Positions 2,619 through 37,392 of a stretch of DNA of 40,331 nt are shown here, one piece after another. Every line of letters begins with the position of its first letter. Position 1 is the first letter of the stretch. The notes under the pieces were generated by a model, which saw only the letters and a program-made list of their open reading frames with translations, searched no databases and was not told where the DNA came from. Origin of the DNA: a virus; IMG/VR virus record IMGVR_UViG_3300025131_000114, positions 1-40,331 of that record, one strand, 5' to 3'. The position numbers and the translations under genes are program-made.

Positions 2619-3482
2619 ATGGCTGACCTCTACCAGCAGGCGATCTGGGAAGCCGACAAACTTCGCAGGATCGAATGGCTAAGACGGATGGGCTGGGACC
2701 AGTCCGCCATAGACAAGATGTTCGGCATCCACCGGACCGAAGGGGCGACCATCTCAGACCTACGGCCTTTCAGCCAGTCCGGCCGTTCGTCCGCTCCACG
2801 GCGGATTGGGAAACCCACAAAACCGGGGATCGAATCGCTAAAGGACCCGTACCGGTGGAACAACTACGGCCAATGGGACCTTGAAGGTAAATGGGCGCCC
2901 AAGCCGCCTCATGGTTCCGGCATGAGTTATCCGGGGCAACCGGGCGTTCCGACCCCGCCTCCGGGGATTCAGGCGCAGATGGATCTCGCCCGGAGTCTCG
3001 GACAAGAGGTACCTCCGTACGAACCCCCACCTCTCTCCGCTGCCCAGCAGCGGCTGACATCAAGAGTCGGACCGGGGGGCATAGACCCCCGATCGACCCA
3101 TCCGCTCGCAGGCGAGTTCGGCTACGGCAGGACCATCGACCCGAACGCGGTCGACCCGCCAGCCACTAGGAGGCAGCAGAGACGGTTCGTCAAAGGTAAG
3201 GGAGGGTCGAAAGGGTATGGCCCGTCATACGCCGCGGGTGAAACCGTGTCAGCCGGTAAGACGATGGGGAGGATACAGGGTCCAGAGAGCATCTACCATC
3301 AGTTGAAGGACATGCCGGGCGACAAGTTAGGGCGAAAGCCATCACCGGAGATGGCGAAGATGATGATTCAATGGGAGAACATGGTGAAAGGCCCGAAGAC
3401 TCAACTAGCCGGACAGTTGACGAAGTTCGTGTCGAAGTGGGGTATGGCCGGGATCAAGTTGATGGCGAAACTACCCAAATAA
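2619..3482 (+). CDS. Head-region protein with shared C-terminal tail (copy A)
   Basis: A 287-residue protein of unknown function. The N-terminal 45 residues look helical and charged and resemble an HTH (MGWDQSAIDKMFGIHR). The middle is proline/glycine-rich and probably unstructured. The last 37 residues (QWENMVKGPKTQ ... MAKLPK) match 31 of 37 in the next protein, and a weaker version ends the third. The shared amphipathic, Lys-rich tail with FVSKWG suggests a common binding site, perhaps on the capsid, portal or scaffold. Encoded between terminase and portal, so a minor virion or assembly protein is likely. Start ATG 2619 follows the previous stop by two bases. Confidence 0.7.
   Translation: MADLYQQAIWEADKLRRIEWLRRMGWDQSAIDKMFGIHRTEGATISDLRPFSQSGRSSAPRRIGKPTKPGIESLKDPYRWNNYGQWDLEGKWAPKPPHGSGMSYPGQPGVPTPPPGIQAQMDLARSLGQEVPPYEPPPLSAAQQRLTSRVGPGGIDPRSTHPLAGEFGYGRTIDPNAVDPPATRRQQRRFVKGKGGSKGYGPSYAAGETVSAGKTMGRIQGPESIYHQLKDMPGDKLGRKPSPEMAKMMIQWENMVKGPKTQLAGQLTKFVSKWGMAGIKLMAKLPK
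3369..3481 (+). repeat. Duplicated gene-end segment, copy 1
   Basis: This 113-base stretch encodes the C-terminal tail of the first of three tandem genes and recurs at 4201-4313. The first 38 bases (3369-3406 against 4201-4238) are identical, and the remainder differs at scattered positions. The two copies are 832 bases apart, about one gene length, which points to tandem gene duplication or exchange of gene ends. Confidence 0.9.
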
Positions 3483-3483
3483 C

Positions 3484-4314
3484 ATGAGTTTGAAGAGCGT
3501 CCCAACGGGTAAGCCGGAACCCCTCACCCGTCAGGTGTATTCGCACCTCATCCGGCTGTGGGAGCAGGCACTAGGCGCCAGTACGGGCTTCGACGAGGTT
3601 TATGTCCCGACTCGCGCCGAACTGGCGAAGGGGAAACTGCCCTACATGGTTTCCGACAGCGGGTACCTCCCATCGCCCGGGCGAAGCGTTCACGTCGGTG
3701 GGGCCACTGAGGGGGGCAGCCTCACGCTGGGTCAGGTTCTCGACGATGTGAACGCCAAGGGGAATAAGAGCGGTTTGGGTCGACAGTTTATGGCGATGGT
3801 CCGACCATTCTATAAACCAAATAGATGGGACACTACGCATGCGACACCCCCACGCCCGCCAGTTGTTGCCCGGACCGGCATCACCACCGCTTTCCCGTGG
3901 TGGCCGGATGGGTGGGTTGTCCCCGACCCGCCACCGGGAGACCCGGTTTGGCAGAAGTACCACGGGACCTCGTCTCCCGGGTTCACCGATGAGATAGTTC
4001 GTCAGGCGAAAGGGGCCGATCCGAAACCCGGCAGGATCGCAGGCCAGTTGGAGTTCATAAAGGGTGGGCGCAAGGGGAGTCCGCCCGCATCGTGGGCACC
4101 CGGTTGGGGTCAACCTATCCCGTACGAACCACCCCCTGTGGACCCGTTCGGATTCGATACCAGCACCGCCGACAAACTTCGTAAAGCGGAAATGTTCTCC
4201 CAATGGGAGAACATGGTGAAAGGCCCGAAGACTCAACTGGCCAGTCAGTTGACGAAGTTCGTGTCAAAGTGGGGAAAACCCGCGCTCAAGTTGATAGCGA
4301 AACTACCCAAATAG
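3484..4314 (+). CDS. Head-region protein with shared C-terminal tail (copy B)
   Basis: A 276-residue protein, unrecognised apart from its tail. Residues 1-230 are rich in Pro, Gly and Trp with little repeat to copy A. From about residue 240 it carries QWENMVKGPKTQLASQLTK and FVSKWG, ending in IAKLPK, nearly the same as the end of copy A at both protein and DNA level. Thus different N-terminal bodies are attached to one tail. The start ATG 3484 lies one base after the copy A stop with no clear Shine-Dalgarno, so translation probably depends on reinitiation. A virion-associated or assembly role is inferred from its place before the portal gene. Confidence 0.7.
   Translation: MSLKSVPTGKPEPLTRQVYSHLIRLWEQALGASTGFDEVYVPTRAELAKGKLPYMVSDSGYLPSPGRSVHVGGATEGGSLTLGQVLDDVNAKGNKSGLGRQFMAMVRPFYKPNRWDTTHATPPRPPVVARTGITTAFPWWPDGWVVPDPPPGDPVWQKYHGTSSPGFTDEIVRQAKGADPKPGRIAGQLEFIKGGRKGSPPASWAPGWGQPIPYEPPPVDPFGFDTSTADKLRKAEMFSQWENMVKGPKTQLASQLTKFVSKWGKPALKLIAKLPK
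4201..4313 (+). repeat. Duplicated gene-end segment, copy 2
   Basis: Second copy of the segment at 3369-3481, encoding the tail of the second tandem gene. The leading 38 bases are identical to copy 1. Outside this segment the two genes show no obvious DNA similarity, so the repeat has sharp borders matching the protein tail. Confidence 0.9.
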
Positions 4315-5043
4315 ATGGCTTCCGCACCACCCCCCCGAAACTGGAACCACGCCTTTATGGTAGGTAACCAGCCGTCGTTCCCGGCTTCGCTTAGTTGGAG
4401 CACCGGTGGACGGGAGCACGAGAAGCGGCTGTTTGCCGAAGCGACAGCCGATGCCAAAAAGGCGTGGGACTCGTTGTTCTCCAAGTCGGAACAAAAACAG
4501 ATCGCTAAGAAATCTTTTGAAGCGATGCGTAACCCGCAGCAGTTGGCAATGTTCACCCCTGCCGAACAACTCCGCGCCATCGTGCCCGGCGACGCCGAAG
4601 CAGCCAGACGGGCCGGGTTGCTTCGCGCTGACGAGAAGATGTGGGACGACAAGTTGTTCGCATCCAAACATGCGGATTGGCGGAGTCCTTCGGGTTCCAT
4701 TTACCCGGGGGTCGACCGCCGAGGTTCTCATTGGCGGTCACTGTACGACGACATCGCAAAGTCAGGTGTGGAGAAACCCGTCTGGGTGGGTCACCCGCCC
4801 CTTTCGCCTGGTCCGCCGATGATCATCGAAGGGCACCACCGCATAGCCTCCGCCGCGGACATCAACCCCAAGATGGAAGTCCCAGTTCGCCACTACGAAC
4901 GCAACTGGCTGAACGCGTCGTCACCCAAGTTGAACGACATGAAACGGTTCGCGCCGAACCAGAAGATAGCGAAACAGTTGGTGGACTTCGGCACGAAGTG
5001 GGGTCGGCAAGCCCTGTACGCCATGATGAAAGCACCGAAGTAA
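4315..5043 (+). CDS. ParB/sulfiredoxin-like motif protein with related C-terminal tail (copy C)
   Basis: A 242-residue protein that begins immediately after the preceding TAG. Residues 40-110 are helical and charged. Around residues 165-195 the segment MIIEGHHRIASAADINPKM followed by EVPV resembles the conserved GxHR core of ParB-like nuclease/sulfiredoxin-fold domains, which bind nucleotides and in some phage proteins cut or modify DNA. The end (IAKQLVDFGTKWGRQALYAM, then APK) is a diverged form of the tail in the two genes before it. A DNA- or nucleotide-handling protein carried in or on the head is plausible; activity cannot be judged from sequence alone. Confidence 0.65.
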   Translation: MASAPPPRNWNHAFMVGNQPSFPASLSWSTGGREHEKRLFAEATADAKKAWDSLFSKSEQKQIAKKSFEAMRNPQQLAMFTPAEQLRAIVPGDAEAARRAGLLRADEKMWDDKLFASKHADWRSPSGSIYPGVDRRGSHWRSLYDDIAKSGVEKPVWVGHPPLSPGPPMIIEGHHRIASAADINPKMEVPVRHYERNWLNASSPKLNDMKRFAPNQKIAKQLVDFGTKWGRQALYAMMKAPK

Positions 5044-5069: not shown

Positions 5070-5228
5070 ATGAACAGTCCAGAGGTTGTAGAAGACCCGC
5101 AAAAAAACAAGGCCCGGGTTGTAGGTCACGACCTTGCTGAACATGACCCGCTGTTGGAGCACCGGCCGCACGAATGCGGGATGTGTGGTGACACTTGGTG
5201 CAAGTGTGAGGAACTACACTACCGCTGA
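5070..5228 (+). CDS. Small putative zinc-binding protein
   Basis: A 52-residue protein with a Cys cluster near its end (HECGMCGDTWCKCEE), which could hold one zinc ion. It is acidic overall. The start is ATG 5070, preceded by AAGGA at 5058-5062 with suitable spacing, and its stop overlaps the next start as TGATG. Nothing identifies a family. It sits between head proteins and portal in the same transcript. Confidence 0.6.
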   Translation: MNSPEVVEDPQKNKARVVGHDLAEHDPLLEHRPHECGMCGDTWCKCEELHYR

Positions 5229-5605
5229 TGCCCGTTTACTTGTACCGGTGCCGTGCCTGTCAGGTCCACGGCGAAAAGTTTCAGCACCACAACGACGACC
5301 CGATGTTGGATTGCCCCGATTGTGGTAAACCGATGTTGCGCCGCGTCTACTCGTTCAAACCGGCGAAAGTCATGCACGAACATTTCAACCACACAGTCGG
5401 CAAAGTCATTTCTGACAAGAAACAGTTCGCTGCGGAACTATCCCGCAAGTCTGCTGAGATGACGGAACGCACAGGCGCTCCGCACAACTATGTGCCTGTC
5501 GATTTGTCCGACAAGGAATCGCTTAGAGTAAGCGACGAGGGTATGGATAGTACGCTGAGGCGGCAAACCGAAACCGGTCAACGAGAAGTGAAGCAGTGGC
5601 TGTAG
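5228..5605 (+). CDS. FmdB-like zinc-ribbon protein
   Basis: A 125-residue protein with an N-terminal zinc ribbon: CRAC at residues 8-11 and CPDCG around 29-33, opening with PVYLYRC, as in the FmdB/CxxC_CxxC family of putative regulators. After the ribbon comes a charged helical region (residues 60-125). Such ribbons beside portal genes are common in phages of actinobacteria, but the role is unknown. Starts at ATG 5228 overlapping the previous stop and overlaps the portal start by 10 bases. Confidence 0.75.
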   Translation: MPVYLYRCRACQVHGEKFQHHNDDPMLDCPDCGKPMLRRVYSFKPAKVMHEHFNHTVGKVISDKKQFAAELSRKSAEMTERTGAPHNYVPVDLSDKESLRVSDEGMDSTLRRQTETGQREVKQWL

Positions 5606-7392
5606 CCGAACGAGTAGATCACGCACAGGGTGAAGACCATGTGGTAGCAGGCCGTATCAACGGTTTGTATGGCAACGCCAAAACGGAAATGAACCGTCGC
5701 CACGACAGGTGGCGTAAAGCGTACCGGTTGGTTCACAACCGCGGTTGGTCCAACTCGCGTGATGCGTGGATGCCCTCCCCGACAGCATCCGAGATTTACC
5801 CGATTGTGTCAGCCCTTGTTGGTTGGATGACTGATCAGCGAGTCAAGTTTCAGGCTGTCCCGTCGGCAGACCCACATTCGCAGTACGCCAACTTTCAGCA
5901 GAAACTCGCACAAGACCTCGAAACTGTGCTTGACTCACTTTGGGTCAACCACAACTTCGAAGGTGAAGTAGAGAAAGTTCTGTTCGACGCGTTTATTTAC
6001 GGCACAGGGTTTTTCAAATGCGTCTACGACCCCGGTGCCGACGGCGGGGCGGGCAATGCGTTGATGCGCCGATGCGACCCGTTCTCACTGTTTATCGACC
6101 CGTCGGCGACTTCGCTACACGACGCCAACTACATCATTGAAGCGCGGGAACTGTCGATCACCGAGTTTGAACGCCGGTTCCCCGGACGCGGCGACGTGAT
6201 CGAAGCAGACATGGGTGCAGGGTTTTCTTTGCCGCATCGTGAAAACAATGAAACTGGTGGCAAAGCCCCGATGGCGAACCTTGCAGCCCATTCCGGCGGG
6301 TCGGGGACTGTTCCTCCGATTTACGGCAAACCGGGTCAAAACGGACGGGTTTCGGATTCGGCGTACTACGACGGTTCGATCACTGTGTTCGAAGCGTGGA
6401 TCAAAGAAAACACGTTGTACACACCGGCTGAGGGAGACGAGGAGGACGAACCGTTCAACGTCTCCGAATGGCGTGTCATCATCACCACCGGTTCGCATGT
6501 GTTGGTCAACGAACGTGCAATGGACATGTGGCAGCACGGCAACCATCCGTACGTCCGGTACGTCAACCACGACATTGGAGACATGTGGGGGATCGCGTTG
6601 GTGGATCATCTCGCTGATCCACAAATGGCTATCAACCGTTTGTTGGCTGCGTTGCAGCAGCACGCCGAACTCGTATCCAACCCTATTTTCTTGGAGGATT
6701 CCCGGTCGGGTATTCCTAGAACAAAGATTGTCAACCGTCCCGGTCAACGCATCACGAAGGGTGCAGGGTCGGAAGCGGGTTGGCTTACGCCGCCTCAAAT
6801 GCCGAACGATGTGCAGGAACTCGTCCAGTTTTACATCAACGAAATGGAAAGAATCAGTGGTCTATCAGGAGTGGTACGGGGGTTTTCGCCGACGGGACGA
6901 AACTCGCAGGGTGTCATCGACTCGGTGGCTGAGTCCGCATTTGTGCGGATACGGCTGGCGTTGCGAAACCTTGAAAGAAGTTTGTCGAAGGCGGGGAGCC
7001 TGTTGGCGAACCTTGTCGTGGAAAACTATTCGCTACCCCGTGTCATGTCGATTGTGGGACCCGACGGTGAACGGTCGATGCTGGCTTTGCGGGCACGACA
7101 TTTCTTCGTCCCCAACGACCAAGGCGCAGACCCGATGAGATTCTCGTTGTATGTGCGTGCAGGGTCGGCGATGCCGATTTCCCGTGCGGCACGTATCGCC
7201 GAAGCAGAAACCTTGTTCGCTATGGGTGCTTTGGACGCCCAAGCGGTGCTCGAAGCCCACGATTACCCGAACCGCGAACAGATTCTGCAACGAGTCAACG
7301 CCGGTGGTGTGCTAGGAATAGGCGGCGAGGGGAAACCCAACCCGAACATGGCTTCCAACTCGAATATGGGTTCCCGTAATAGACAACGGTGA
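5596..7392 (+). CDS. Portal protein
   Basis: This 598-residue protein is the best candidate for the dodecameric portal at the capsid vertex, the channel for DNA entry and exit and the nucleation point for head assembly. Features typical of portals are the conserved tract DAFIYGTGFFKCVYDP followed by CDPFSLFIDP (residues about 132-170), a wing region, and later a long helical stem with ERISGLSGVVRG and a Lys/Arg-rich clip. The length is in the range of podovirus-like portals. Start is GTG 5596, inside the end of the zinc-ribbon gene, with a purine-rich GAGAAG upstream. It lies upstream of scaffold and capsid genes, the usual order. Confidence 0.88.
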   Translation: MAVAERVDHAQGEDHVVAGRINGLYGNAKTEMNRRHDRWRKAYRLVHNRGWSNSRDAWMPSPTASEIYPIVSALVGWMTDQRVKFQAVPSADPHSQYANFQQKLAQDLETVLDSLWVNHNFEGEVEKVLFDAFIYGTGFFKCVYDPGADGGAGNALMRRCDPFSLFIDPSATSLHDANYIIEARELSITEFERRFPGRGDVIEADMGAGFSLPHRENNETGGKAPMANLAAHSGGSGTVPPIYGKPGQNGRVSDSAYYDGSITVFEAWIKENTLYTPAEGDEEDEPFNVSEWRVIITTGSHVLVNERAMDMWQHGNHPYVRYVNHDIGDMWGIALVDHLADPQMAINRLLAALQQHAELVSNPIFLEDSRSGIPRTKIVNRPGQRITKGAGSEAGWLTPPQMPNDVQELVQFYINEMERISGLSGVVRGFSPTGRNSQGVIDSVAESAFVRIRLALRNLERSLSKAGSLLANLVVENYSLPRVMSIVGPDGERSMLALRARHFFVPNDQGADPMRFSLYVRAGSAMPISRAARIAEAETLFAMGALDAQAVLEAHDYPNREQILQRVNAGGVLGIGGEGKPNPNMASNSNMGSRNRQR

Positions 7393-7415: not shown

Positions 7416-7580
7416 ATGGCCGAGAAGTTCACGTCCAATAACGTCCCAACTCCGAGAGGCTGGAAAGGCCCGTCGGAGAAGGGTTCAGTGGTACGACAAC
7501 TCGACGGTAGGCTTTCTGCGAACAAGGCAGAAGGCGACGACGAAAATCAGAACCAGCGCAGAAACGCGTTGGATCTCTAA
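7416..7580 (+). CDS. Small hydrophilic protein
   Basis: A 54-residue, strongly polar protein with no hydrophobic core (many Asn, Arg, Asp), likely disordered. Start ATG 7416 has GTAAGG upstream. It is one of three small genes between portal and scaffold. The family is not recognised; a minor head or assembly factor is the positional guess. Confidence 0.55.
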   Translation: MAEKFTSNNVPTPRGWKGPSEKGSVVRQLDGRLSANKAEGDDENQNQRRNALDL

Positions 7581-7594
7581 CCAAGGAGCATCAG

Positions 7595-7729
7595 ATGCCC
7601 GGTCCCGCTTCCACTTCGGGGAAGAACATCAAGGTTCACAAGTTGGGTCAGACTGCTGGCCGCGACTACGGAGCCAACGTGTCTTCCAAGAAGTCACAGT
7701 CGCCACGCGATCTGTCAGCAAAGAAGTAA
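7595..7729 (+). CDS. Small basic protein
   Basis: A 44-residue, Lys/Ser-rich protein (ends SPRDLSAKK) with a good Shine-Dalgarno AAGGAG at 7583-7588, which supports translation despite its size. The positive charge would suit DNA or capsid-interior binding. Unrecognised family; gene order places it with head assembly genes. Confidence 0.55.
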   Translation: MPGPASTSGKNIKVHKLGQTAGRDYGANVSSKKSQSPRDLSAKK

Positions 7730-7732
7730 CTC

Positions 7733-8065
7733 ATGGCTGGTGGCACCCGCCAGAACAACACGATGTCGGAGGGGTTGCATCAACTCCTGTCTTCGCTCGC
7801 CCAACTAAAGGCAGCGCCTGACGCCGACCTCGAGTATCTGTCGGCCATTGAGTCCGCCATTTTGCAGAAGTTGAAGGAGCCTCTACAGCAGGCAGCGCAG
7901 GCTCTGGCACAGGCTGGTGGTGTTGTTCCTCCGGGGATGGCCGGGCAGATGGGTGCCGCAGCACAGGGCGGCATGGGTCAATCACCGCCTCAGCAGGCTC
8001 AGGGTGGGGGGATGCCCAACCCTGATGAACTACGGAGATTGGTGGCATCCAGAGGTCTCAGATAA
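7733..8065 (+). CDS. Hypothetical head-assembly region protein
   Basis: A 110-residue protein with a helical N-terminal half (residues 10-60, heptad-like Leu/Ala spacing) and a Gly/Gln/Pro-rich, probably disordered second half (GMAGQMGAAAQGGMGQ). Start ATG 7733 is three bases after the previous stop. Located directly before the putative scaffold; it might assist scaffold or capsid assembly, but no family is recognised. Confidence 0.6.
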   Translation: MAGGTRQNNTMSEGLHQLLSSLAQLKAAPDADLEYLSAIESAILQKLKEPLQQAAQALAQAGGVVPPGMAGQMGAAAQGGMGQSPPQQAQGGGMPNPDELRRLVASRGLR

Positions 8066-8101: not shown

Positions 8102-9037
8102 ATGGCAGAAGAAGAACTTTCTCAGGAACAGGTAGACGATTCCCTAGCAGAACAGGGGTTCGTTGCTGAAGTTGGGTCGGACCGTTGGGTGTCGGATCTT
8201 GAATCACAGTTCGCGACCGACGATGACGAGCCTGTAGAGGCTGAAGAAGTCGCTGAAGAAGTCGCCGTCGGGGGCGGCGATTCCCAAGCCGCCGATGGGG
8301 ATACCCCAGCCTCCGACGGCGACGCTCCCGATTACGTCCAGTTGGGGGATGTGCGTGTCCCGCAGGACGAGGCGGAGCGTGTTGCCCGGTTCTGGGATTG
8401 GATGAACACCAACCCAGATGAGGCGATGCAGTTCGTCGGTTACATGTCGGGCGAATACGACCTTGTGCCAAAGGGTCAGCAACCCGCCCAGCAGTCTGTT
8501 CAGCGTGAGTCAACACCCGTTGACGAGTCTGATCCGTACGAGGATTGGGATTTGTTGCCGGAGACGGTGCAGCAGCGGTTGAAGAAGGTTGACAAACTGG
8601 AGACGTATTTGGCGGCGCAGCACAGGCAGCAGCAGGCTGCTGTGCAGCAGCAAAACATGAAGTCGGTGGAGACGGCTCAGGCGCAGTTTGCGAATACGTA
8701 CGATTTGAACTCGAATGAGGTGGCGCGGCTCGCCGACGAGGCGGCAAGACTAAACATTGTCCCTGCTTTGGTTCAGGATACTGGCGATCCTGTCAGAGCC
8801 GTAGAACGTGCACTTGAGATAGTGTATTTGCAATCAGATCAGGGCAGAGAACGAGAGTTCAATAAGCGCATAGCCCAAACAGAATCCGATAGAGACAAGC
8901 AACGTAAGATGGCTGCTGTCGGGGGTACTGCCGGGTCTGTACCTAGGCAGGAACCCGATGCAGTACCGAGTAACGCTACGGAACGTCGATCCGCGATGGT
9001 CAACGAAATCGCAGCCGCTCTCGGCAAAGTAACGTGA
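8102..9037 (+). CDS. Putative capsid scaffolding protein
   Basis: A 311-residue, very acidic protein (long Glu/Asp runs in residues 1-90) with predicted helical/coiled-coil stretches around residues 150-240 rich in Gln and a mixed-charge C-terminus. This charge pattern, and its place immediately before the major capsid gene, match phage scaffolds, which template prohead assembly and leave before or during packaging. No protease motif is apparent. Start ATG 8102 has GATGAGG just upstream. Confidence 0.75.
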   Translation: MAEEELSQEQVDDSLAEQGFVAEVGSDRWVSDLESQFATDDDEPVEAEEVAEEVAVGGGDSQAADGDTPASDGDAPDYVQLGDVRVPQDEAERVARFWDWMNTNPDEAMQFVGYMSGEYDLVPKGQQPAQQSVQRESTPVDESDPYEDWDLLPETVQQRLKKVDKLETYLAAQHRQQQAAVQQQNMKSVETAQAQFANTYDLNSNEVARLADEAARLNIVPALVQDTGDPVRAVERALEIVYLQSDQGREREFNKRIAQTESDRDKQRKMAAVGGTAGSVPRQEPDAVPSNATERRSAMVNEIAAALGKVT

Positions 9038-9060: not shown

Positions 9061-10044
9061 ATGGCAACGCCAATCGGCTCCGATGTGGTCACCTCTATCG
9101 CACGTCGGTACATCCTCCCGGAAGTTACCGACAACGTCTACAACTCGAACCTTTTGTTGTTCCGACTGAACCAGTCGAACAAGAAGATCGTTCGCGGTGG
9201 GACGCAGATCGAGGTGCCACTCATGCACAGCCGTCTGGCAGCAGGTGGTGCCTACTCGGGATTCGACCTTCTGGACGTAACCCCGTCAGACACCATCAAG
9301 AATGCTGCATGGGACTGGAAACAGTATTACGTCCCAGTGACGGTTGACGGGCTGACCTTGATCAAGACTGATTCCCCGGAAGCGGTCGCCGATTTCATTC
9401 GTCTGTACTTCCAACAGGCTGAGATGGAAATGGCGGAGATTCTCGGAACAGGACTCTGGTCGGACGGGTCAACTGATACCAAACAGATCGACGGCATCGA
9501 AGGTGCTGTCGACGATTCAACGGTTCTCACCACATACGCTGGGATTAGCCGTTCCGCCAACACTTGGTGGCAGTCGCAGTACGACGGCTCAACCACCGCG
9601 TTGACGCTGGCGACCATGCAGACGATGTTCGGCAACTGCACCAATGGTGGCCGACATCCGACGGTGCTGGTGACGACACAGACCAACTACAACAGGTTCT
9701 ACGCGCTGAACCAGTCTGACGTGCAAATCAACGTCGGTCAGGGCGCGGTGGACGAGCAGTTGGCGAACGCAGGGTTCACAAACCTGTTGTTCAACGGTGT
9801 CCCACTGTGCGTCGATTCGCACGTTCCGACAGACGGACCGTCCGGTTCGGGTTCAGGGCATCACATCTACTTCCTCAACGAAGATTTCATCCACTTTGCG
9901 GTTTCGCCAAGGGCTGACTTCTATCTGGAGGATTTCCAGACACCCATCCAGCAGGATGCGATGGTAGCCAAACTCTTCTGGGCTGGTAACCTCGTTATCA
10001 ACAACTGTCAGTTGCAGGGCAAAATGTCTGCCCTGACCTCGTAA
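9061..10044 (+). CDS. Major capsid protein
   Basis: A 327-residue protein in the position and size range of HK97-fold major capsid proteins. Supporting traits are an N-arm (residues 1-40), a conserved early patch with VPLMHSRLAAGG and a spine-helix-like region (residues about 105-130, FIRLYFQQAEMEMAEILGTG). It also has an A-domain-like end (SPRADFYLEDFQTPIQQD, then a hydrophobic close). A strong AGGAGA lies before ATG 9061, as expected for the most abundant virion protein. It follows scaffold and precedes a probable decoration protein. Confidence 0.88.
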   Translation: MATPIGSDVVTSIARRYILPEVTDNVYNSNLLLFRLNQSNKKIVRGGTQIEVPLMHSRLAAGGAYSGFDLLDVTPSDTIKNAAWDWKQYYVPVTVDGLTLIKTDSPEAVADFIRLYFQQAEMEMAEILGTGLWSDGSTDTKQIDGIEGAVDDSTVLTTYAGISRSANTWWQSQYDGSTTALTLATMQTMFGNCTNGGRHPTVLVTTQTNYNRFYALNQSDVQINVGQGAVDEQLANAGFTNLLFNGVPLCVDSHVPTDGPSGSGSGHHIYFLNEDFIHFAVSPRADFYLEDFQTPIQQDAMVAKLFWAGNLVINNCQLQGKMSALTS

Positions 10045-19849: not shown

Positions 19850-20536
19850 ATGGCTACCCTCACTTCGCTGCTAACGGACGTACGAAACAAACTCGACGAA
19901 ACGACTTCTGGTCAGTGGACTGACGCCGAGTTGCGTACGTGGATCAACGAGGCTGCACGCGACATGTCGCGCCGGTCTGAAACCCTTCAGTCGTCTTCAA
20001 ACATTTCGGTTGTTGCGGATACGCAGGAGTACACGCTTCCTACTGACACGTTGCGTGTACACAGGGTTGAGTGGCGTCCTACGGCGTCGTCGAATGTGTA
20101 CCCATTGGAGTACCGGGATTTCAACTCGATGGACGCTGTGTGGTGGTCGTCGCAAACCACGTCGAAGGGTTACCCCACCTTTTACACAATGTGGGGGTAT
20201 CCGCCTGCGTTGAAGGTTGTGTTGTATCCGACTCCTTCCGAGGTGGGTGTTTTGAAAGTCTTCTACTATCAGCATTCCACTGATTTGGCGACTGACGGTA
20301 CAGCCGATTCGTCTACCGTTCCTGTTCCTTCTGGTTATGAAGATTTGTGTACGACGTATTGCGAAATGGTTGCGTTGCGTAAGGACCGTGATCCTCGCTG
20401 GCAGGAGGCTCGTGCGTTGTACATGGATTCGTTGACTGAAATGTTGGATCGGACTCGTCGGTGGACTGATCAGGGAGATTTCATTCAGGTTGGTCAGTCG
20501 CATCTGCCGGGTTGGTTGTGGGGTGGCGAATGGTAA
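19850..20536 (+). CDS. Head-tail adaptor (connector) protein
   Basis: A 228-residue protein resembling phage adaptor proteins that bind beneath the portal (gp6/gp4/T7 gp11-like role; DUF6682-like style). The start LTSLLTDVRNKLDETTSGQW-then-TDAELRTWINEAARDM is typical: a helical bundle holding an xxxWINEAxxDM pattern. This is followed by QEYTLPTD and a beta-rich centre, then a C-terminal helix with EMLDRTRRW. Lying among virion genes but after the fibre block is somewhat unusual. Ends overlapping the next gene by seven bases. Confidence 0.75.
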   Translation: MATLTSLLTDVRNKLDETTSGQWTDAELRTWINEAARDMSRRSETLQSSSNISVVADTQEYTLPTDTLRVHRVEWRPTASSNVYPLEYRDFNSMDAVWWSSQTTSKGYPTFYTMWGYPPALKVVLYPTPSEVGVLKVFYYQHSTDLATDGTADSSTVPVPSGYEDLCTTYCEMVALRKDRDPRWQEARALYMDSLTEMLDRTRRWTDQGDFIQVGQSHLPGWLWGGEW

Positions 20537-23193
20537 GACGCAACCTTTTCACGGAGGCGATTCCTCCGGGTCAGTCGGAGCCACCGACTGGCACTTTGCC
20601 TGCTGACTCCGATCCGCCGGGCGGCGGTGACAGAGGCGTGTTACCGGGCGCGCTCGACGTGGGCAGTGAGGGGGGAGCGCTGGCGGGCGAGTGGGCGACC
20701 TCCCCGCCCGGCCAGCAGCGTGCCGCTCCGGGTGTTTTAGGTAAAATAGGCGCGAACATCGTGTCTGGTGCTATGGACTTGGCAAAGCAGGTGTCTACTC
20801 AAGACATTGCCGGTTTGAGTTCGCTGATCGAGTATGAGTCCACGGTGGCGGCGGCGCAGGAACCTGTCGATTTTACAAACTGGGAGGAACGTACACGTCT
20901 TCTCGATAATCGTCAGAAGAACATCATGGAGGCGGCGACAGCCAACATGGATTTGTCGGCGATCACCGGTGAGGAACTGGAGTTGCGGCTTATGCAACTC
21001 GGGTTGGATGAGCAGGAAGCCAACAACTTGTTGGGCCGTGTCGGGTTGGCCCGGGCGGGTCTCGGCATTGACCAGCAACGCATCGACTTGGACGCGGCGG
21101 GTGTCGGCGAGTCAATCGACTTCTTGAACCAGACTCTCAGCGACGTTGATTTGACCGAAGCGTCTCTGGGACGTGATCTGGCGACGATCGCTGATCAACT
21201 GTCGATGACCGATTTGGAGAAGGGAGAAATCGGTTACCAGAAGGAAGACGTGGGGGATTTGGATGAGATTGCCCGCACGTTGTTGGCGGCTCGCGAAGCG
21301 TTGCTGGGTGAGGAGTCCGCTGTCGGCGAGGGGCGCATATCGGTGGAGCGTCAGCGACTCGATTTGGAGAAGGAATCCACCAGCCTTCAGGCTGACCGTG
21401 CCATGAAGGCTGCTTTACGTGACGCTTATGCACGCGGAGCGTCGTTTACTACTGGGATACGGGAAGACGTAACAGACTTGGATCGTTCTCGCGAACTGGC
21501 GTTGGACGAGTTGGCGTTGCGTAACACCGGTCTTGATTTGGCGTCTCGGGAACTGTTGGCGCAAACCGGTTACCAGTCAACGGAGATCGAAGCGGCGAGA
21601 GACAGGGCCGACATCGACTTGGATGCGAACCTGCGTGCGTTGGACATGGACTTTACTGAAATCGAGTTCATGGCGGACCGGTTGGGCCGGTCGGCTGCCG
21701 ATGTTACTGATGCGATCACCCGGTTGGACACCGACCGGTTGGGTATCCAGTTGGAGATTTCCGACCAGACTCGTCGGCTTTCGCAACTCGGTTTGGACAG
21801 CGACGAGATCGCTAATCAACTCGCCGAGTTGGATTACGACGAGGCGGACGTTCAGTTGGCGTTGTCTGCCCTTGAGTTGCAAACCGAGGGTGTCGGTTTG
21901 GAACAACGGACTTTGGCAGCAAACGATTTGTTGAACCAACTCGCTGTTGAGCGTGAAATCGACACGATCGACTTGCAGCGTGTCGGCTACTCGGAGGAAA
22001 AGGCGAAGCAGGCAGCGCAACACGAGGAGTGGCGTAAGATAACCGCCGCGAAGGAAGATTACCGCGCTGATCAAATGGAACAGCAGGAGGCTAGGGGCGG
22101 CATAGCGGCGACGGTGGCTGCGAAACAGGCGATTGAACAGTGGGCGCCTGTGTTGGCTGGCATGACGCAGGCTGACGCTGAGCAGATCACGTCAGCGTTT
22201 CCGACTCTGTTTGACGAAGTTTCGTATCCGGGGGCTACGGAATCTGCGAGCCAAGTCTTTATTCCGCAGTACGAGATCAACCCCGACTTTGATATGGATT
22301 TCAACCCCACCTTTGAGTACGAGTTCAACCCCGAGTTTGACTTTGACATGGGCGGCTTCAACTCCGAGTTTGATTTCGGCGGCGATTTCGGCGGCGGCGA
22401 TTTCGGCGGCGGGGGCGGCGGCGGGGGCGGCGGACCCGGCATGGACGGGGGCGGCATGGGCAGCATGGACGAAGGCCCCCACGAGGGCGACTTCGGGGGC
22501 GACTTCGGCGGCGGCGACGACGGGGGCGGGGTCTTTGAGGAACCTCCAGTCGACGATGGGCCCGGAGATGACACGGGGCTTGGACCTTTTGAGGATTGGG
22601 ACCCGCCGGAAGATCCAGTCGACTCGGGAGCGTTCGACCCGGGAGCGTTCGAAGATTTCGATTTCGGGAGCATGTTCGGAGGTTTGTTCAATGCAGCCCC
22701 GCAGGCGACCGGGTACACGATGGACCCCGGAGGACGGCGAACCACTTCGGAAGATTTGTCCGGTCAGTTGGGTCAGTCCGACGACTTCGCACCAGCGTTG
22801 TTGAACGAACTGGGTGCGCCTGTGTTGGCGAACAATCTGGAAACACTTGGTTCATGGATGGCCGCTGAGGGTACGACAGCAAGGTTCAACCCGTTGGCTA
22901 CCACGAAGCAGGGCGGCAAACCGGGTGATCCGGACCGTGACCAGTACGACCAGTTCAACGAGGTTGGTGTGAAGAACTACCCTGATTTCGCTACGGGCGT
23001 GGATCGTACGGCAGCGACTCTACGTGATTCGTTTGCGTTGCCAGTGTTGGAGGGTTTGATGAACAACGTGCCTGCCGACGTGATGAACACAGACCATTTG
23101 GTAAACGCGGCGCTGTCAACGTGGTCTGGCGGGGGTTACACCGAGTTTCCGAACGTGGCTACACCGGGGCCTGCTTATGGTCCACCGAGATAG
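20530..23193 (+). CDS. Internal virion protein with Gly-rich linker and C-terminal muralytic-like domain
   Basis: An 887-residue protein. Residues 1-75 are Pro/Gly-rich; 80-540 are almost entirely helical, with repeated acidic LDxxxLxLD patterns; 585-690 are Gly/Asp-rich with a ten-Gly run; 750-887 look globular. The last part (TLGSWMAAEGTTARFNPLAT, FNEVGVKNYPDFATGVDRTA) resembles lysozyme/transglycosylase-like domains at the ends of phage tape-measure and ejection proteins, with E in AAEG as the candidate catalytic residue. It probably enters the cell and opens peptidoglycan during DNA entry. ATG 20530 is preferred over TTG 20512 because GGGGTGG precedes it. Confidence 0.72.
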   Translation: MVRRNLFTEAIPPGQSEPPTGTLPADSDPPGGGDRGVLPGALDVGSEGGALAGEWATSPPGQQRAAPGVLGKIGANIVSGAMDLAKQVSTQDIAGLSSLIEYESTVAAAQEPVDFTNWEERTRLLDNRQKNIMEAATANMDLSAITGEELELRLMQLGLDEQEANNLLGRVGLARAGLGIDQQRIDLDAAGVGESIDFLNQTLSDVDLTEASLGRDLATIADQLSMTDLEKGEIGYQKEDVGDLDEIARTLLAAREALLGEESAVGEGRISVERQRLDLEKESTSLQADRAMKAALRDAYARGASFTTGIREDVTDLDRSRELALDELALRNTGLDLASRELLAQTGYQSTEIEAARDRADIDLDANLRALDMDFTEIEFMADRLGRSAADVTDAITRLDTDRLGIQLEISDQTRRLSQLGLDSDEIANQLAELDYDEADVQLALSALELQTEGVGLEQRTLAANDLLNQLAVEREIDTIDLQRVGYSEEKAKQAAQHEEWRKITAAKEDYRADQMEQQEARGGIAATVAAKQAIEQWAPVLAGMTQADAEQITSAFPTLFDEVSYPGATESASQVFIPQYEINPDFDMDFNPTFEYEFNPEFDFDMGGFNSEFDFGGDFGGGDFGGGGGGGGGGPGMDGGGMGSMDEGPHEGDFGGDFGGGDDGGGVFEEPPVDDGPGDDTGLGPFEDWDPPEDPVDSGAFDPGAFEDFDFGSMFGGLFNAAPQATGYTMDPGGRRTTSEDLSGQLGQSDDFAPALLNELGAPVLANNLETLGSWMAAEGTTARFNPLATTKQGGKPGDPDRDQYDQFNEVGVKNYPDFATGVDRTAATLRDSFALPVLEGLMNNVPADVMNTDHLVNAALSTWSGGGYTEFPNVATPGPAYGPPR

Positions 23194-23207
23194 GTTAGGA
23201 TTCTGAC

Positions 23208-24983
23208 ATGGCTACTCCTGCTCAACTGTTAGGTCAGTTGGCGCAACAGTTCGAGGCTGCCGGTAACCCGCAGTTGGCTAACGTGTTCCGAGGCATGGCC
23301 AGCCCTAGCGGCGGCGGTGTACGTCCGGGAACCTCGACGTTCGGCAACGTATCTGTCGGCGCCCGTCCACCGGTTGGCCAGTTGGCGGGCCAGTTGACTT
23401 CTCCGATGATAGGCGGTCGGTCGGCTTCGTCATTTAGGCCGCCGTTGCAGTTGGGTCCAGGTTCACCTTCGGACCTCTGGATCACTAAGGATGCCAGGCG
23501 AACAGCGGGTCAGGCTGCGGCTAGGGCGGCGGCTTCACCTCGTTCGGGTGCTGGCGTGCAGCAGGTGTTGGGCGGCCAGTTGGGTCCGTTCGGGCGGGGT
23601 CCCCGTCCGTGGTCTGAGGCGACGGCGTTTCCTCCGGCTGGCAGTCGGGGGATTCCGATGCCGCGACGTGCTTCGTCGAGTTTGGTGCAGTCGATGGGTT
23701 CACCTCATTTGAATCCGACTGCGGCATTGACCCGTCAGAACGCTGCGATGCGCGGGTTGGCTTCTCAGGTGCCTAGCCGTACGGCTGCTGCTGCTGGCGG
23801 GGCGGGTGCTGGTCGTCCGAGAATCCCAACGTCTGCCGGGGCGGGTGCTAAGGGTCCGTTCCAGATGGGTCCGATTGGTTCAACTGGTCCCGGTCGGCCG
23901 ATGGGGAATCCGCGGTCGGTCAAGGCTGCTGCGTCTGCGTTGAAGGTTTCCCCGACTTCAGCAAAGCCCGGTCTGGCTGCTGCTGGCGCTGGCGCTGCCG
24001 CTGCCGGTGGTGGTGTGGGGCATACAGATTATGCGAAGGCGCGCATAGGGGTGAAGAACTGGGCTAAGACGTTCCGTAACCCGGTGAAGATTTTCGAGTC
24101 TGCTAGGGATGTCGCTAAGGGTAAGGGTGGCCGGATCAGGGGTACTGCGGCTGGTTCGTCGGCTGCTGGTGTGTGGAAGGCTGCGAACCCGGCGATGGCT
24201 GTGGCGAGCGTCGGCTACCTGCTGCGGGTTCACGAATGGTACGACGAGGGAACTCAGGGCGATCAGGTCGCTGAGGGAATGTTGATTGGTGCGTCGTTTG
24301 GTGCGTCGTGGGGCGGGATCGGTGCTTTGGTGGGTGCACCGGTCGGCATGGCGTTGAACGTTTTGACTCAGGGCAAGGCTGCTGATTACATTCAGCAGAT
24401 GCCGGTGCTCGGTGCGTTTTTCGGCGAAGATGTGAAAGAAAAGTTCGACATATCGAAGCACGGCCGTGACATGTTCGCAACGGCAGCGAAGTTGCAGGGG
24501 GTTGAGAACCCCGACGAGGTTGTCGAGGCGGCAACGAAGCAGTTGGAAATGTTCAACTCGATGTTTGAGACGGCAATGCTCGACCCGGAGCAGGCTTTCC
24601 AAATGGTTCTCACGTCGGGTCGTATTGCTGGTTTGACTGGTTTCCCGTGGAACCCGGAGGAACTCACGCCGATCTATTCTGCTGAAGACATTTCTGCGAT
24701 AACCAGCACGATCAGCGACGAGTTGCGTCCGCTGCACGATGTCGCTAACGGTTTGAGAACACAGGATTTCAGCCATATCGCCGACGAGGCCACTCGTGCA
24801 AGGCTGATAGCGGTGGCGCAGCGGGCTGCTGGCGACATCGAAGAAGGGTTTGCTGCGTCGGTGGGTGTTCCGGCGCAGTCAGCGATCTTGGCTGGCGCGC
24901 AGCAGCGTCAAACCTCTCAGTCTTTGGGAGGCCAGTTGCCCGGCTTGGACGACTTTGGGGCGCTTTTGTCCGGCGTGGGTTGA
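23208..24983 (+). CDS. Internal virion (ejection) protein, Gly/Ala-rich
   Basis: A 591-residue protein. Residues 1-270 are low-complexity Ala/Gly/Pro/Ser with repeated GQL motifs (LGQLAQQ, VGQLAGQL, LGGQLG), likely disordered. Residues about 357-390 are a glycine-zipper-like hydrophobic stretch (GASFGASWGGIGALVGAPVG) that could insert in membranes, and a helical acidic C-terminal part follows. Such proteins in podoviruses form a channel for genome entry. It lies between two other large ejection-type genes, separated by short gaps. The assignment relies on context and composition. Confidence 0.62.
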   Translation: MATPAQLLGQLAQQFEAAGNPQLANVFRGMASPSGGGVRPGTSTFGNVSVGARPPVGQLAGQLTSPMIGGRSASSFRPPLQLGPGSPSDLWITKDARRTAGQAAARAAASPRSGAGVQQVLGGQLGPFGRGPRPWSEATAFPPAGSRGIPMPRRASSSLVQSMGSPHLNPTAALTRQNAAMRGLASQVPSRTAAAAGGAGAGRPRIPTSAGAGAKGPFQMGPIGSTGPGRPMGNPRSVKAAASALKVSPTSAKPGLAAAGAGAAAAGGGVGHTDYAKARIGVKNWAKTFRNPVKIFESARDVAKGKGGRIRGTAAGSSAAGVWKAANPAMAVASVGYLLRVHEWYDEGTQGDQVAEGMLIGASFGASWGGIGALVGAPVGMALNVLTQGKAADYIQQMPVLGAFFGEDVKEKFDISKHGRDMFATAAKLQGVENPDEVVEAATKQLEMFNSMFETAMLDPEQAFQMVLTSGRIAGLTGFPWNPEELTPIYSAEDISAITSTISDELRPLHDVANGLRTQDFSHIADEATRARLIAVAQRAAGDIEEGFAASVGVPAQSAILAGAQQRQTSQSLGGQLPGLDDFGALLSGVG

Positions 24984-24989
24984 TGAGTC

Positions 24990-27900
24990 GTGGCGACGTT
25001 CACGACGCCGGTTCTTCCCGGTAGAACCAAGGGTCTCGAAACTTCCAAGGAACGGTGGCGTCGCCGCGCTCAGGTGGCTATGGCGAACAACGTCCCGTTG
25101 GACATTGTTCAACAGGTTTACCTTTACGATCAGGAACGGGTAAACCGGGGCGGCAACCCGATGTCGGACCGCGAGGCTGCGGTGTCGATTCTTGGTGCTC
25201 AGGGTAAGGGTGGTGAAACGGGTCGGGTCGGCGGGTTCTTTGAGAACGCTGCTACCGATTTGCGGGACATTGTTCTCGGGTTGCCGCAACTACCGGGGTT
25301 TATTTTGAAGGAACCTGCGGCGATGGGCGACCCGGAAACCGGGTTGGGTGCTTCAGTTTCGGCTGGTTTGGAAGCCATGTCGGAGGGGGATTTCGGCAAG
25401 GGGATAGCGAAGATCGCTGGTGCTCCCGGTATCCGGTTGGTTCCCGGTTCGTTCACAGCGGAGATGCTGGGTGGTGGCTACGAGGGAGACAAGGGTCCGG
25501 GGGAACTCGCTAAGCATCCGTTGTTCACGTTCTTGGATTTGTTGCCGATCGCATCGAAGGCTGGTTTGACTGACGCGGCGTTGAGTCGTCTCACTGGTTC
25601 CAGCCCGTGGAAGCGTGCCGCTCAGAATCTGGAGAACCGTGGTTGGGGTCGTTCCGCTACGCAAACGGCTCGTGAGTTCCGCAAGGGTCAACGCCTCGCC
25701 GAGGAGGGTGTGATCGGCGAGGCGTCGCTGGGCAGGCCCGGTGTCGGTACTCACACCGAACTTCAGGAACATCTTCTCAACTGGGCCGACACGTTCGACG
25801 ACGCGGAGATGACGGCAACGTGGGATTATTTGGAGCAGGGCCATTGGAAGTCTGGCGGTGCGCCACCTAAGTGGGCGGTCGATTCCAACCGCGGTGATGC
25901 GTGGTCGTCGATGGTTGAGGACGCTAAGGCGATGGGCGACTGGTACGGCAAGCACGGTGAGGTAACTGGTGAAGTGTTGTCGGTCAACGGCGAGTTGTTC
26001 CCGAATACTCCTGCTGTCCGCAAGCATCTGAAAGACATTCAGGAGGCTAAGGGAGGGAAGAAGAAGACCGGCAAGTCGCAGGAAACTACCGAAGCGAGAC
26101 GTGTTCGTGCGGAAACGGTTCATGCTGAAACAACAGCGAAGATCGCCGATTTGGAGTCGTCGTTGTCTGTTGTTGATGCTGTCCGGTTCTCCGATGAGAT
26201 AACAGAAGCGGTTACCAGCACTGAACGGTTGGTGATGCCTGATTTGGGTCAAGCCGATGATGTGGCGAAGGCTGAACGGGTGCTTCAGTCTGACACGGAC
26301 GCTGCGTCTCGGTTGGCTCCAACTAAGAGCCATGTCGTTGAGGAGACGGCGTGGCCTGACGATGTGGCTCCGCTGCGTTCCGGCGAGTCTGCCTATTTGG
26401 CCGGGGAGAGGTCTCCTGCGTTTGAAGGCGAGTCGGTTGTTACGAAGCGTGCTGGCCGGGCGCCTTCAACCGAGGAGGGCCAGTTGTTGCAGGTCCGCCA
26501 GAAGTTGGATGGCGAAGTTGTCGCTGAACGGGCCGCTGAGGTTGTGGATCGGCGTGTCGCTGCTCAGGAACAGTTGAATCGGGTTGTGGTGGAGCGTCGG
26601 TTGACTCCGGCTCAGGCTCGTAACGTGAAAGCGGCTGCTGAGGGGCGGTTGCATCCCGGTTCGTTGGAGGATCGTGTCCGCGCTTTGAACGACCAGATGG
26701 GTGATGCTGCCGTGAATCTAGATGAGACGATCACGGTGCCGCGGTTGGATCGGTTGGGCCGCGATGTCGAGGTGAAGATGACCCGGTTGGCGTACGAGGT
26801 CGACGAGTTGAAGGCGGGGGGTTGGGAAAACAAGGTTGTTGATGGTGAAGCGTTTTCTCGGGAACCGTCGAAGTCTCGTGTAGCAAAGTTGGTTCGCCGG
26901 TCGCTGAAGAAACGTCGTGCGTCGTTGTTGGCTGCTGCCGACGAGGCTGGTGCGTTCCGTGTGGGGACACCGGAGGCTGCTGAGGCTGTCCGGGTTCGCA
27001 TCAGCAGCACCATCAATGATGACATCGCCGATTTGTTGGATCGGCACATAACCGACGAGGCAACTATTCGGGTTGCTAAGGGCCACGACCCGTCTGATTA
27101 CCGCATCGACCCTGTGACGAGTCGTCCACGCCCCGGCGACAGTTATCCAACAAGGTTGACGAGTCGGGAAAAGGACATGATTCGCACGGGTCGTGGAACC
27201 CGACGTGTGGTCGATGAGAAGGGAACTACGTGGGAGGTGTACGAGTTCGACCCGACGATTGAGGTGTCGAGTTGGGGTGCCCGTCGAACCCTTTCGGAAG
27301 AGTTCGCTGCGGCTGAGGGTGAAGTTGTTCACGGCAACACAGCGTTCAGAAACTTTTCCGATGAGGCGTTGGACAAGTTGTCAGCGATTGACGACTGGAC
27401 CGAGTTGGATGCCGCCCAGTTCGTGGAGTCGGAACGCGCCGGGTTGACGGCCGACGCAGTAGATCAGATCACTGTCGATTTGTTGGATGCTGCAACTGTC
27501 GACGCTGCCGAAGCGTTTGTCATGGTGGAGGGGCGGCCTGTGTCGGTGGCTGCGTTGCGTGTGTTGGATCGTGCCGCTGAGATTCTTCCTGAACGGTTGG
27601 CTGAGATGGTGCCCCGTAGCCCTGAGTGGGAACCGATCCGGCAGATGGCCGAAGGAGATTTTGTAAAGCCCGGTGTTTCCATCGTTGAGTCTTCGTCTTC
27701 TCAGGCTGGCCGGTTGGCAGAAAACACTGCCCATTTGGCGCAGATAGACGAACGTATCGCAGCGTTGGAGTCTGGTGCGAAGGCTGCGTCTGTTCCTGCC
27801 GACGATGTGTTGCAGGCGGAACTGGCGTTGAATCGGGCCACGGAGATGGAGTCGCAACTTCAGTCTCGTATCGAGGCGGTGAAGTCGGGGGAGGCGCAGC

Positions 27901-35051: not shown

Positions 35052-35144
35052 TTACCAACCCAAAGCCTCTATGGCGTTGAGAAAACAGGTGAAGACGAAG
35101 CCCCATATGGCGAACCACATGACCGCTCCGTACACCTCATCCAC
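35052..35144 (-). CDS. Tiny membrane peptide
   Basis: A possible 30-residue gene starting at GTG 35144 inside the end of the VWA gene (overlap around its TGA). Nearly the whole chain is one membrane segment (YGAVMWFAIWGFVFTCFLNA). Later starts at GTG 35135 or ATG 35120 would also keep it. If translated it would be coupled to the VWA/ATPase genes. Size limits certainty. Confidence 0.4.
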   Translation of the reverse strand: MDEVYGAVMWFAIWGFVFTCFLNAIEALGW

Positions 35145-37392
35145 TGATCGTGCGGGCTATGCGCTCCGCCAGCCCGTCAACAACTTTGTGCACCCCTTCG
35201 TCGGGTTCGTCGAATGGCACCTCTATGGTGTCCAACCCGTATTGTTTCGGGTCGTCGCATCCCAGCCCGATGCCGACGACGTGGAGTCGCCGATCGGGTA
35301 GTTGCGCCATCGCTTTGACCCGTCTGCATTGGGCTTCCAGAATGGCTCGCTGGTTGGTGAAGTCCTCGGCAGGCATTTGACCGTCTGTGTAGTAGAGCAA
35401 GATCCGGTCGGTTGCCCGTTGCGTGCAAAGCAGGTTGACGTAGGTTCGCATTGTCAACCCGTCGAGGTTTTGATGCGAGGAGTGCAACGCACCTAACCCC
35501 GATTTCGCTGTCTGGTCCCAAGGTTCGGCGAAGTTCTTGACGAGTTGAAGGGTCATCAGCGACCTGCGGGTCAACGACGAATCTAGGTCTCGGGCAATGT
35601 CTTCTCTGAGACCTTCGTCGTCTTCCATATCCGTTTCGTCGAAGTAGTAACTCGAGCCGGTGTGCCCCGATACGGCAAACGGGATACCTAGTTTGTCAAG
35701 CAACGTGGCTTGTGCGTATGCGAGTTGCCGTAGTTGTTTGATGGCTTCGCCGTCGGTGGAACCTGATTGGTCGACGCCGATGAGCACAGCGTAGGAGCGT
35801 TTCCGGGGTTTCTCGATTCTCCGAAACGCCCGCCGGTTACCGGTTGGTACTCGTGCAAGTTTGCTGCCATGCAACCTTCCTCGCACAAGGTTCGGTACCG
35901 ACGCCGACCTCCTGTTCAGACCAAGGGCGTCAGCCAACTTGCGTTGCGCTCCGTGGATCTGCCCTTGAACGTCAACTTCCAACCGGCTGGCTTCGTCGAA
36001 ACCACCTTCAGCAGGGTATTTCCACCCCGGAAGTAGTTTGATCTTGGAACTAACCATCCGCTTGGAGTAGTTGGGTCGCAGGACGACGGCCACGTACTCC
36101 CCTTCACCGGAGTCTCCAACCATTCCTGAACCTCCGGGGAGTTGCATGAGTTCGCTGAGAGTTTCCGATTCTTCTCCGGCTCGGGCTGCATTCATCGCTT
36201 CAGCGATTTCTGCCATGCCGGGTGCGTCAACTCCACCGGGGTCGCTGACCCCTCGATTTGCCCGGTACTTGATTCGACCTTCAGATTCAGCATTAGCGGT
36301 ACGCGAAGCCCGCCTCTGCATATTGCTGCGGGCTTCTTCCATTGTTTTCTTGTCGCGAAGCCGCTGACTTTCTTTCAGTTTGCCGTCGGACTCCATGTCC
36401 TTACCTGATTGCATCGTCTTGGATGCGGCACGACCCGATCCTGTACGCGAGCCGTCTTCGGAGTCGTCTTCGTCGGACTCGGGTCGTCGATGTTCGAACA
36501 ACCCGTATGTTTCCCGGGCATACTCGGTGAGTACCACAGCAGCAGCAACAGAACCCGCTGTCGATTTGGGTTCACCGACTTTGATTATCTTGGCTACAAC
36601 GGGGTCGTTGAGACAGGCCAGCACCGTGTTTGACTTCAGCGTCGGCTTCAGGTCGTATCCGTGTTCGAGTTCAACCTCGACAGCGACTCCGACCTGGTAT
36701 CCGACTGCACCTTCGTTGATGCCTTCTCCGGTGGCTGCCCGCGCTATGAGTTCATGCACGAGTCGTTCCATCTGTTGTCCCAAAGCAGATCGGCTGTCGC
36801 CAACTGCTTTGTTGATCCGGGCATCTTCGAAAGCGTTCGCTATGAACGGTGCTTCCGGGTTGAACCAACTCGCTACTTCCAATGCTGACAACGGGTTCCC
36901 GGTCCGGGCATCAGGGTCGGTGATACACACCAACCCCTCGTAGCAGTTTACTTCGAACTTCTCTTTGAACTCTGGTGGAAGTACCTCCAGAAGGTCTTGT
37001 ATCCCTGTGTAGAGAAGGTCGAAGAACTCCTTGTCGACGGGTTTGGTGGACCCTTGGCTGATGTGGGCTGCTTCGTGCAGCAGGAACCCGACGTTGATGT
37101 GGTAGAGGCAACGATCCGGGTCGTCGTCGCACACACACGGGTTGTCGGGGTCAACACCAGCAAACGAGGGCCACACCGGTAGGTGTATCGTGTCGCCGTC
37201 GGTACAAGGCCCCAACCCGGATGTGTTCAGGCAGACTCTGATTCCGGGGTCTCCCGCCGAGGTTCTCACAATGTCTGTGAACCTCGGCAGGAGCCGTGCC
37301 GCTACCCTCGCCGCTTCGGCATACGCTTCGAATGTTCCGGCTTCACCAGTAACTTCGATGCCGGGATGGTCGAGGTTATCCAACGTCGTCAC
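35137..37392 (-). CDS. HExxH metallopeptidase-like and von Willebrand A domain protein (MoxR partner)
   Basis: A 751-residue protein. The N-terminal part carries a Cys/Asp cluster (C86, C88, C95) and LLHEAAHISQG with HExxH at 106-110, a zinc-peptidase-like helix. Residues about 300-420 are highly charged and probably flexible. From about 530 a VWA domain shows a MIDAS motif, VDQSGSTDG (D541, S543, S545), and later YYTDGQM. COG3864/DUF2201 and CobT proteins combine a VWA domain with a MoxR/CobS AAA+ ATPase, exactly the gene just upstream. The pair may remodel or activate a target complex, with metal binding. GTG 37392 overlaps the ATPase stop; the frame extends to 37446. Confidence 0.78.
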   Translation of the reverse strand: MTTLDNLDHPGIEVTGEAGTFEAYAEAARVAARLLPRFTDIVRTSAGDPGIRVCLNTSGLGPCTDGDTIHLPVWPSFAGVDPDNPCVCDDDPDRCLYHINVGFLLHEAAHISQGSTKPVDKEFFDLLYTGIQDLLEVLPPEFKEKFEVNCYEGLVCITDPDARTGNPLSALEVASWFNPEAPFIANAFEDARINKAVGDSRSALGQQMERLVHELIARAATGEGINEGAVGYQVGVAVEVELEHGYDLKPTLKSNTVLACLNDPVVAKIIKVGEPKSTAGSVAAAVVLTEYARETYGLFEHRRPESDEDDSEDGSRTGSGRAASKTMQSGKDMESDGKLKESQRLRDKKTMEEARSNMQRRASRTANAESEGRIKYRANRGVSDPGGVDAPGMAEIAEAMNAARAGEESETLSELMQLPGGSGMVGDSGEGEYVAVVLRPNYSKRMVSSKIKLLPGWKYPAEGGFDEASRLEVDVQGQIHGAQRKLADALGLNRRSASVPNLVRGRLHGSKLARVPTGNRRAFRRIEKPRKRSYAVLIGVDQSGSTDGEAIKQLRQLAYAQATLLDKLGIPFAVSGHTGSSYYFDETDMEDDEGLREDIARDLDSSLTRRSLMTLQLVKNFAEPWDQTAKSGLGALHSSHQNLDGLTMRTYVNLLCTQRATDRILLYYTDGQMPAEDFTNQRAILEAQCRRVKAMAQLPDRRLHVVGIGLGCDDPKQYGLDTIEVPFDEPDEGVHKVVDGLAERIARTISG

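Follow-up and report, generated by a model that had tools for sequence, protein, structure and literature searches.

Three successive genes in the head region of a marine phage encode proteins (A, B and C) that have unlike bodies and carry one common C-terminal tail of 30-40 residues, and we put the probability at roughly one half that these proteins are a set of accessory cargo with a common C-terminal targeting helix, the most likely purpose of which is loading into the virion. If the tail does load proteins, it would represent a portable C-terminal address for a family of short-tailed phages, the bodies found in the window and its relatives (A, B, C, D and X) would constitute a pool of effectors that marine phages may inject, and the tail itself would be directly usable as a tag to pack proteins of choice into phage shells. 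Should the tail have no such function, the locus still documents cassette exchange clearly, with unlike bodies, one kept tail and a fossil tail.

The shared tail and its genomic setting

The window, i.e. the whole stretch of DNA that was analysed, is a 40.3 kb virus record, and the phage is an Mx8/P22-portal-like podophage. Genes A, B and C are flanked by the genes for TerL and an HNH protein on the 5' side and by those for a Zn-ribbon protein and a P22-type portal on the 3' side. They apparently form one operon, in which the stop of A and the start of B are joined as TAACATG and those of B and C as TAGATG. The features of the region are as follows.

454-2076: TerL, upstream of A, B and C
about 2074-2453: HNH protein, upstream of A, B and C
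2619-3482, + strand: protein A, 287 aa, pI 10.1, no Cys, Pro/Gly-rich body, tail at the C-terminus
3369-3482, + strand: tail-coding repeat of A, 113 nt plus the last base of the stop codon
3451-4320, + strand: recently exchanged B cassette, 96% identical to the related contig L022
3484-4314, + strand: protein B, 276 aa, pI 9.8, no Cys
4201-4314, + strand: tail-coding repeat of B, helical in the AF2 model and the only part of B with pLDDT >50
4315-5043, + strand: protein C, 242 aa, pI 9.9, no Cys, EGHHR motif in mid-protein, tail at the C-terminus
4462-4515, + strand: second short motif in C (AWDSLFSKSEQKQIAKKS), far upstream of the tail and also present in X
4933-5043, + strand: diverged copy of the tail in C, two predicted helices, matched by the A+B profile
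5228-5605: Zn-ribbon (FmdB-like) protein, downstream of A, B and C
5596-7392, + strand: portal protein, P22-type (PF16510, 2.4e-27; phrog_156, 3.3e-41), candidate docking partner
8102-9037, + strand: presumed scaffold, pI 4.2, so named for its acidity and its position before mcp, candidate docking partner
9061-10044, + strand: major capsid protein, Mx8-like, pI 4.6 (phrog_9953, 4.2e-59)

The named relatives of the major capsid protein are Mx8, Mx9 and BUCT555 (about 30% identity), and the presumed scaffold matched no family in Pfam or PHROGs. With regard to the host, scans of genome contigs recovered no TerL or portal relative.

The resemblance between A and B is confined to their ends, as the initial annotation had stated: 31 of the last 37 residues are identical (6 differences), and a BLASTP comparison yields a single significant segment, with 33/42 identities at the C-termini (E=3e-18). 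The same limit is seen at the DNA level, where positions 3369-3481 and 4201-4313 match over 113 nt (90.3% identical, E=4e-40) ending at both stop codons, and the identity is at background level upstream from about 40 codons before the stop. The claim that the third protein, which ends in ...FAPNQKIAKQLVDFGTKWGRQALYAMMKAPK, has a diverged version of the tail was borne out as well. A tail profile built from A and B only retrieves C as its top untrained match among 22,600 six-frame ORFs (E=0.0027), reaching the last residue of C, and the reverse profile (built from C and X) finds B at 0.002 and A at 0.09. With profiles built without D, the tails D2 (E=0.0013) and D1 (E=0.11) are the next matches, each at the last residue of its protein, so that the D link is based on E-values of 0.001-0.1 combined with the coincidence of exact C-terminal placement. 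All tail copies end at a stop codon, i.e. the element is exclusively C-terminal, and the evidence base comprises about seven distinct tail sequences from a narrow clade. Chance similarity or a chimeric assembly is refuted by the DNA match and by the recurrence of the same A-B-C arrangement in L003, L004 and L020, three additional contigs that come from other metagenome sets, which shows that the arrangement is not an assembly error.

Between tail types the third codon positions have diverged: B and D2 are identical at 13, 14 and 5 of 29 first, second and third positions, respectively, and the corresponding identities between C and D1 number 12, 18 and 5. Selection on the peptide, and not shared DNA, therefore explains the similarity. 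For the tails of A and B the dN/dS is about 0.46, which indicates moderate constraint only.

Every tail copy is cationic: its last 30 residues have a net charge of +5 to +7. AF2 models the tails of B and C as helices with a pLDDT of about 70 (residues 216-229 and 231-238 in C) and most of the bodies with values below 50. The C-terminal element has two helices and carries basic residues. Overall model quality is low (mean pLDDT 37 for B and 43 for C), because just two or three relatives exist. The helical moments of the tails are moderately high, but borderline when compared to shuffled sequences (p 0.01-0.15 for most segments). The possibility that the tail is a copy of the C-terminus of the phage's own scaffold was rejected, as hhalign found no similarity between the two; a PDB profile search gave no match to solved structures, and no resemblance to a known targeting peptide could be detected.

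As to the bodies, none of A, B, C, X and D matched a family above cut-off in Pfam, NCBIfam and PADLOC, nor did A, B and C in PHROGs. The six tail proteins (A, B, C, X, D and a B+D fusion) are all basic (pI 9.3-10.1) and have 0 Cys in about 1,680 aa, versus 0.73% Cys in the other listed ORFs of the genome, a reference list that contains some unverified ORFs and thereby makes the expected number of Cys approximate. The Cys-free, Pro/Gly-rich composition may perhaps reflect just disorder.

Outside the tails, similarity is restricted to an 18-residue motif common to C and X (4462-4515 in the window, about 3859-3912 in L011; 11/18 identical, E=9e-5 for the pair) and to a weak N-terminal resemblance between A and X, the remaining bodies of which do not align. 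A full-length homologous domain of which the tail would be a part was looked for among the tail proteins and not found. The C/X motif follows the pattern AWDxxFxKxEQxxIAKxS, with a faint likeness to the WEN..K...QLA start of the A/B tail, and the N-termini of A (2619-2740) and X (3418-3520 in L011) have a common MGWxxxxIxKxxGI stretch that is helix-turn-helix-like. Two candidate functions were rejected: the YHGT stretch that might mark B as an ADP-ribosyltransferase reads YHGQ in L016, and a ParB-like identity of C (EGHHR) found no match with the profiles PF02195, PF18763 and PF08857. The best match of C among phage records is a Gordonia phage ParB-like protein at E=1, a resemblance only.

Gain, loss, fusion and exchange of cassettes among related phages

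Nine close lineages were obtained from capsid and portal scans, and looking for the C-terminal tail motif across them revealed tail proteins in four, with five unlike bodies between them. The lineage of the window has A, B and C. In the second lineage (L011/L022) X takes the place of A and is followed by B (94%) and C (64%). The third (L016/L026/L027) has a single protein of 405 aa that consists of the B body (63% in the L016/L026 fusion), the D body and the tail, and the fourth (L015/L024/L025) has a 210-aa D body plus tail encoded behind the portal gene, i.e. at a different place. The proposed portability of the tail is thereby well supported, since it occurs on five unlike bodies, at two genomic places and in one B+D fusion, and its protein pattern outlives DNA identity.

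The other five close lineages are without tail proteins. These include L010 as well as L009/L021, whose portal is the most similar to that of the window (96%) and which yet lacks any tail protein, implying that the set is dispensable and patchy. When the longest two of the tail-less relatives (41.8 and 42.1 kb) were searched with a profile, no tail was found anywhere, and the same holds for the portal loci of more distant portal relatives. Mapped on the portal tree, the presence of the tail corresponds to about three gains or losses. C-terminal sharing in L034 was rejected as a further case, for it is due to a whole-gene tandem duplication: the two tandem proteins behind the portal (about 5558-7183), which contain a HEMAH metalloprotease-like motif, are 62% identical overall and about 85% over their last 48 residues.

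The exchanged block that spans B starts inside the tail of A and stops where B ends and C starts. When the window is compared with L022, the B body has a dS of 0.05 versus 0.34-0.54 for terL, portal and mcp, from which it follows that the exchange of B is recent; a similarly low dS (0.05) is found for the Zn-ribbon gene. The dN/dS of the B body (about 0.6-0.7) is high compared to that of terL, portal and mcp (0.04-0.09), which indicates that the bodies evolve fast. In L011/L022, a stretch encoding QLMAKLPK-stop, i.e. an A-type tail end, remains between X and B and is a fossil left by the gene whose place X has taken. The lineages have thus acquired, lost, fused and traded cassettes, and the boundaries lie within the tail-coding ends or next to them. 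Behind C, L022 (about 6795-7060) has an inserted ORF of 75 aa that is flanked by two ATGGAAGGATT copies, and the window has one ATGGAAGGATT copy there.

Possible functions of the tail

According to the reading that we prefer, A, B and C would be accessory proteins, small, basic and fast-changing, that are expressed from the head-gene operon and that combine a body of their own with the common cationic helical tail. This tail would be a helix that targets the proteins by binding to a conserved component of head assembly or to the packaged DNA, the likeliest partners being the acidic scaffold or the inner face of the capsid or portal. The unlike bodies would then be loaded into the procapsid via the tail, and on ejection they would enter the host together with the DNA and act there, as the internal proteins of T4 do. 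The scaffold is the first candidate partner, because the ejection proteins of P22 require the scaffold for their incorporation (PMC4992974). At the DNA level, the tail-coding ends of successive genes might serve as a homology handle by which cassettes swap with their reading frames intact. More doubtful is the extension in which the tail is a C-terminal virion-loading tag and its coding DNA serves in addition as the site of recombination through which a stock of delivered proteins is interchanged; a cassette would then be a new body plus the tag, the tandem tags would be direct repeats, and cassettes would move from phage to phage and also from one place to the other within the head operon. 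The docking to scaffold, portal or capsid interior that was originally suggested has circumstantial support only (location, basic character, absence of Cys, rapid turnover), and what speaks against it is the lack of likeness to the scaffold or to solved structures and the occurrence of the tail in one narrow clade only.

The internal proteins of T4 are basic, dispensable and variable and have a common targeting peptide, which in IPI, IPII, IPIII and Alt comprises 10-19 N-terminal residues that are removed by the prohead protease gp21 (PMC9026906). The proteins of the window are likewise small and basic, with unlike bodies and one short peptide (one address, many cargos), and as a set they are similarly dispensable and variable among close relatives. 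Unlike in T4, the tail has 30-40 residues and is C-terminal, and the phage is podovirus-like with a P22-type portal; no protease family was encountered among the scanned window proteins, a set without the small ORFs at 7416-8065. In P1, DarB has an N-terminal packaging signal that was tested with a reporter fusion, and the N-termini of the Dar proteins have no consensus among them (PMC9024508). The Dar proteins are comparable to those of the window as accessory proteins with a terminal signal, where head loading is shown for the former and inferred for the latter, but the tail described here is clearly common to its proteins and is C-terminal. Capsid-targeting sequences, with which the tail was initially compared, are therefore an apt parallel in general terms but differ in the details, since the best-studied examples (T4 and P1 DarB) are N-terminal: the tail may well work like such a sequence, but as it lies at the C-terminus we do not class it as one.

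The scaffolding protein of P22 carries a C-terminal coat-binding helix-turn-helix (PMC9965877). The tail resembles this domain in being C-terminal, in its size (about 30 residues), in its two helices and basic residues and in occurring in a phage with a portal of the same Pfam family, but no sequence similarity was detected and the tail is absent from the phage's own scaffold. Encapsulin cargo peptides are C-terminal too and bind an encapsulin shell that is encoded nearby; the window has a tailed-phage capsid gene. Polyvalent and MuF-fused effectors are variable, probably delivered and encoded beside portal and terminase genes (PMC5512222). The tail proteins are variable as well, have the same type of neighbourhood and are probably delivered, but their bodies are small and without profile match and the shared part is a short C-terminal tail; at the Pfam cut-off none of the polyvalent/MuF domains (MuF, DdrB-ParB, MPTase, ART, PBECR and others) was found in A, B, C, X or D.

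The main rival reading, a tentative one that deserves to be taken seriously, holds that the tail is a cationic amphipathic helix that, within infected cells, addresses the bodies to the inner membrane or nucleic acid, and that the proteins are non-virion proteins of the takeover, replication or lysis stage. The charge and helical moments of the tails, their AF2 helices and the lack of similarity to the scaffold are all in line with this, and basic amphipathic helices equally fit membrane or nucleic-acid binding. Nevertheless, the genes lie inside the head operon in all carriers, the moments are borderline for most segments relative to shuffled sequences, and the pattern of a conserved Gly and a terminal Pro-Lys goes beyond what a generic membrane helix needs.

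It is unlikely that the tails bind each other within one accessory assembly (e.g. a small neck, inner-core or decoration complex) and thus constitute an oligomerisation element and no address: the three tail proteins are encoded in tandem in both the window and L022, apparently in one operon, but the L015 and L026 lineages have one tail protein each and wholesale replacement of bodies would be unusual for interlocking subunits. Still less probable is that the tail is devoid of a common function and arose merely because the ends of neighbouring genes recombined or underwent gene conversion. Although the tail DNA of A and B, 90% identical, bounds the exchanged cassette, a fossil tail end persists in L011/L022 and the constraint on the A/B tail is moderate, the tails of C, D1 and D2 keep the protein pattern with third codon positions that are near random relative to A/B, and D2 resides at another genomic place.

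Elsewhere in the window, three consecutive large proteins with zero cysteine (893, 591 and 1930 aa; 20512-30782), a feature in common with the tail proteins that agrees with the preferred reading, match no family and are presumed, from position and composition only, to be ejection proteins. The minus strand at 35137-38467 carries a pair of CobT-like and CobS/AAA-like genes (phrog_5298, 1.6e-55; phrog_5424, 4.6e-49). Between the HNH gene and A lies another small mobile gene (2437-2616), encoding a 59-aa protein with a hydrophobic N-terminal stretch, which recurs at the same place in L015 (4115-4294) and at a distant locus in L014 (18325-18501).
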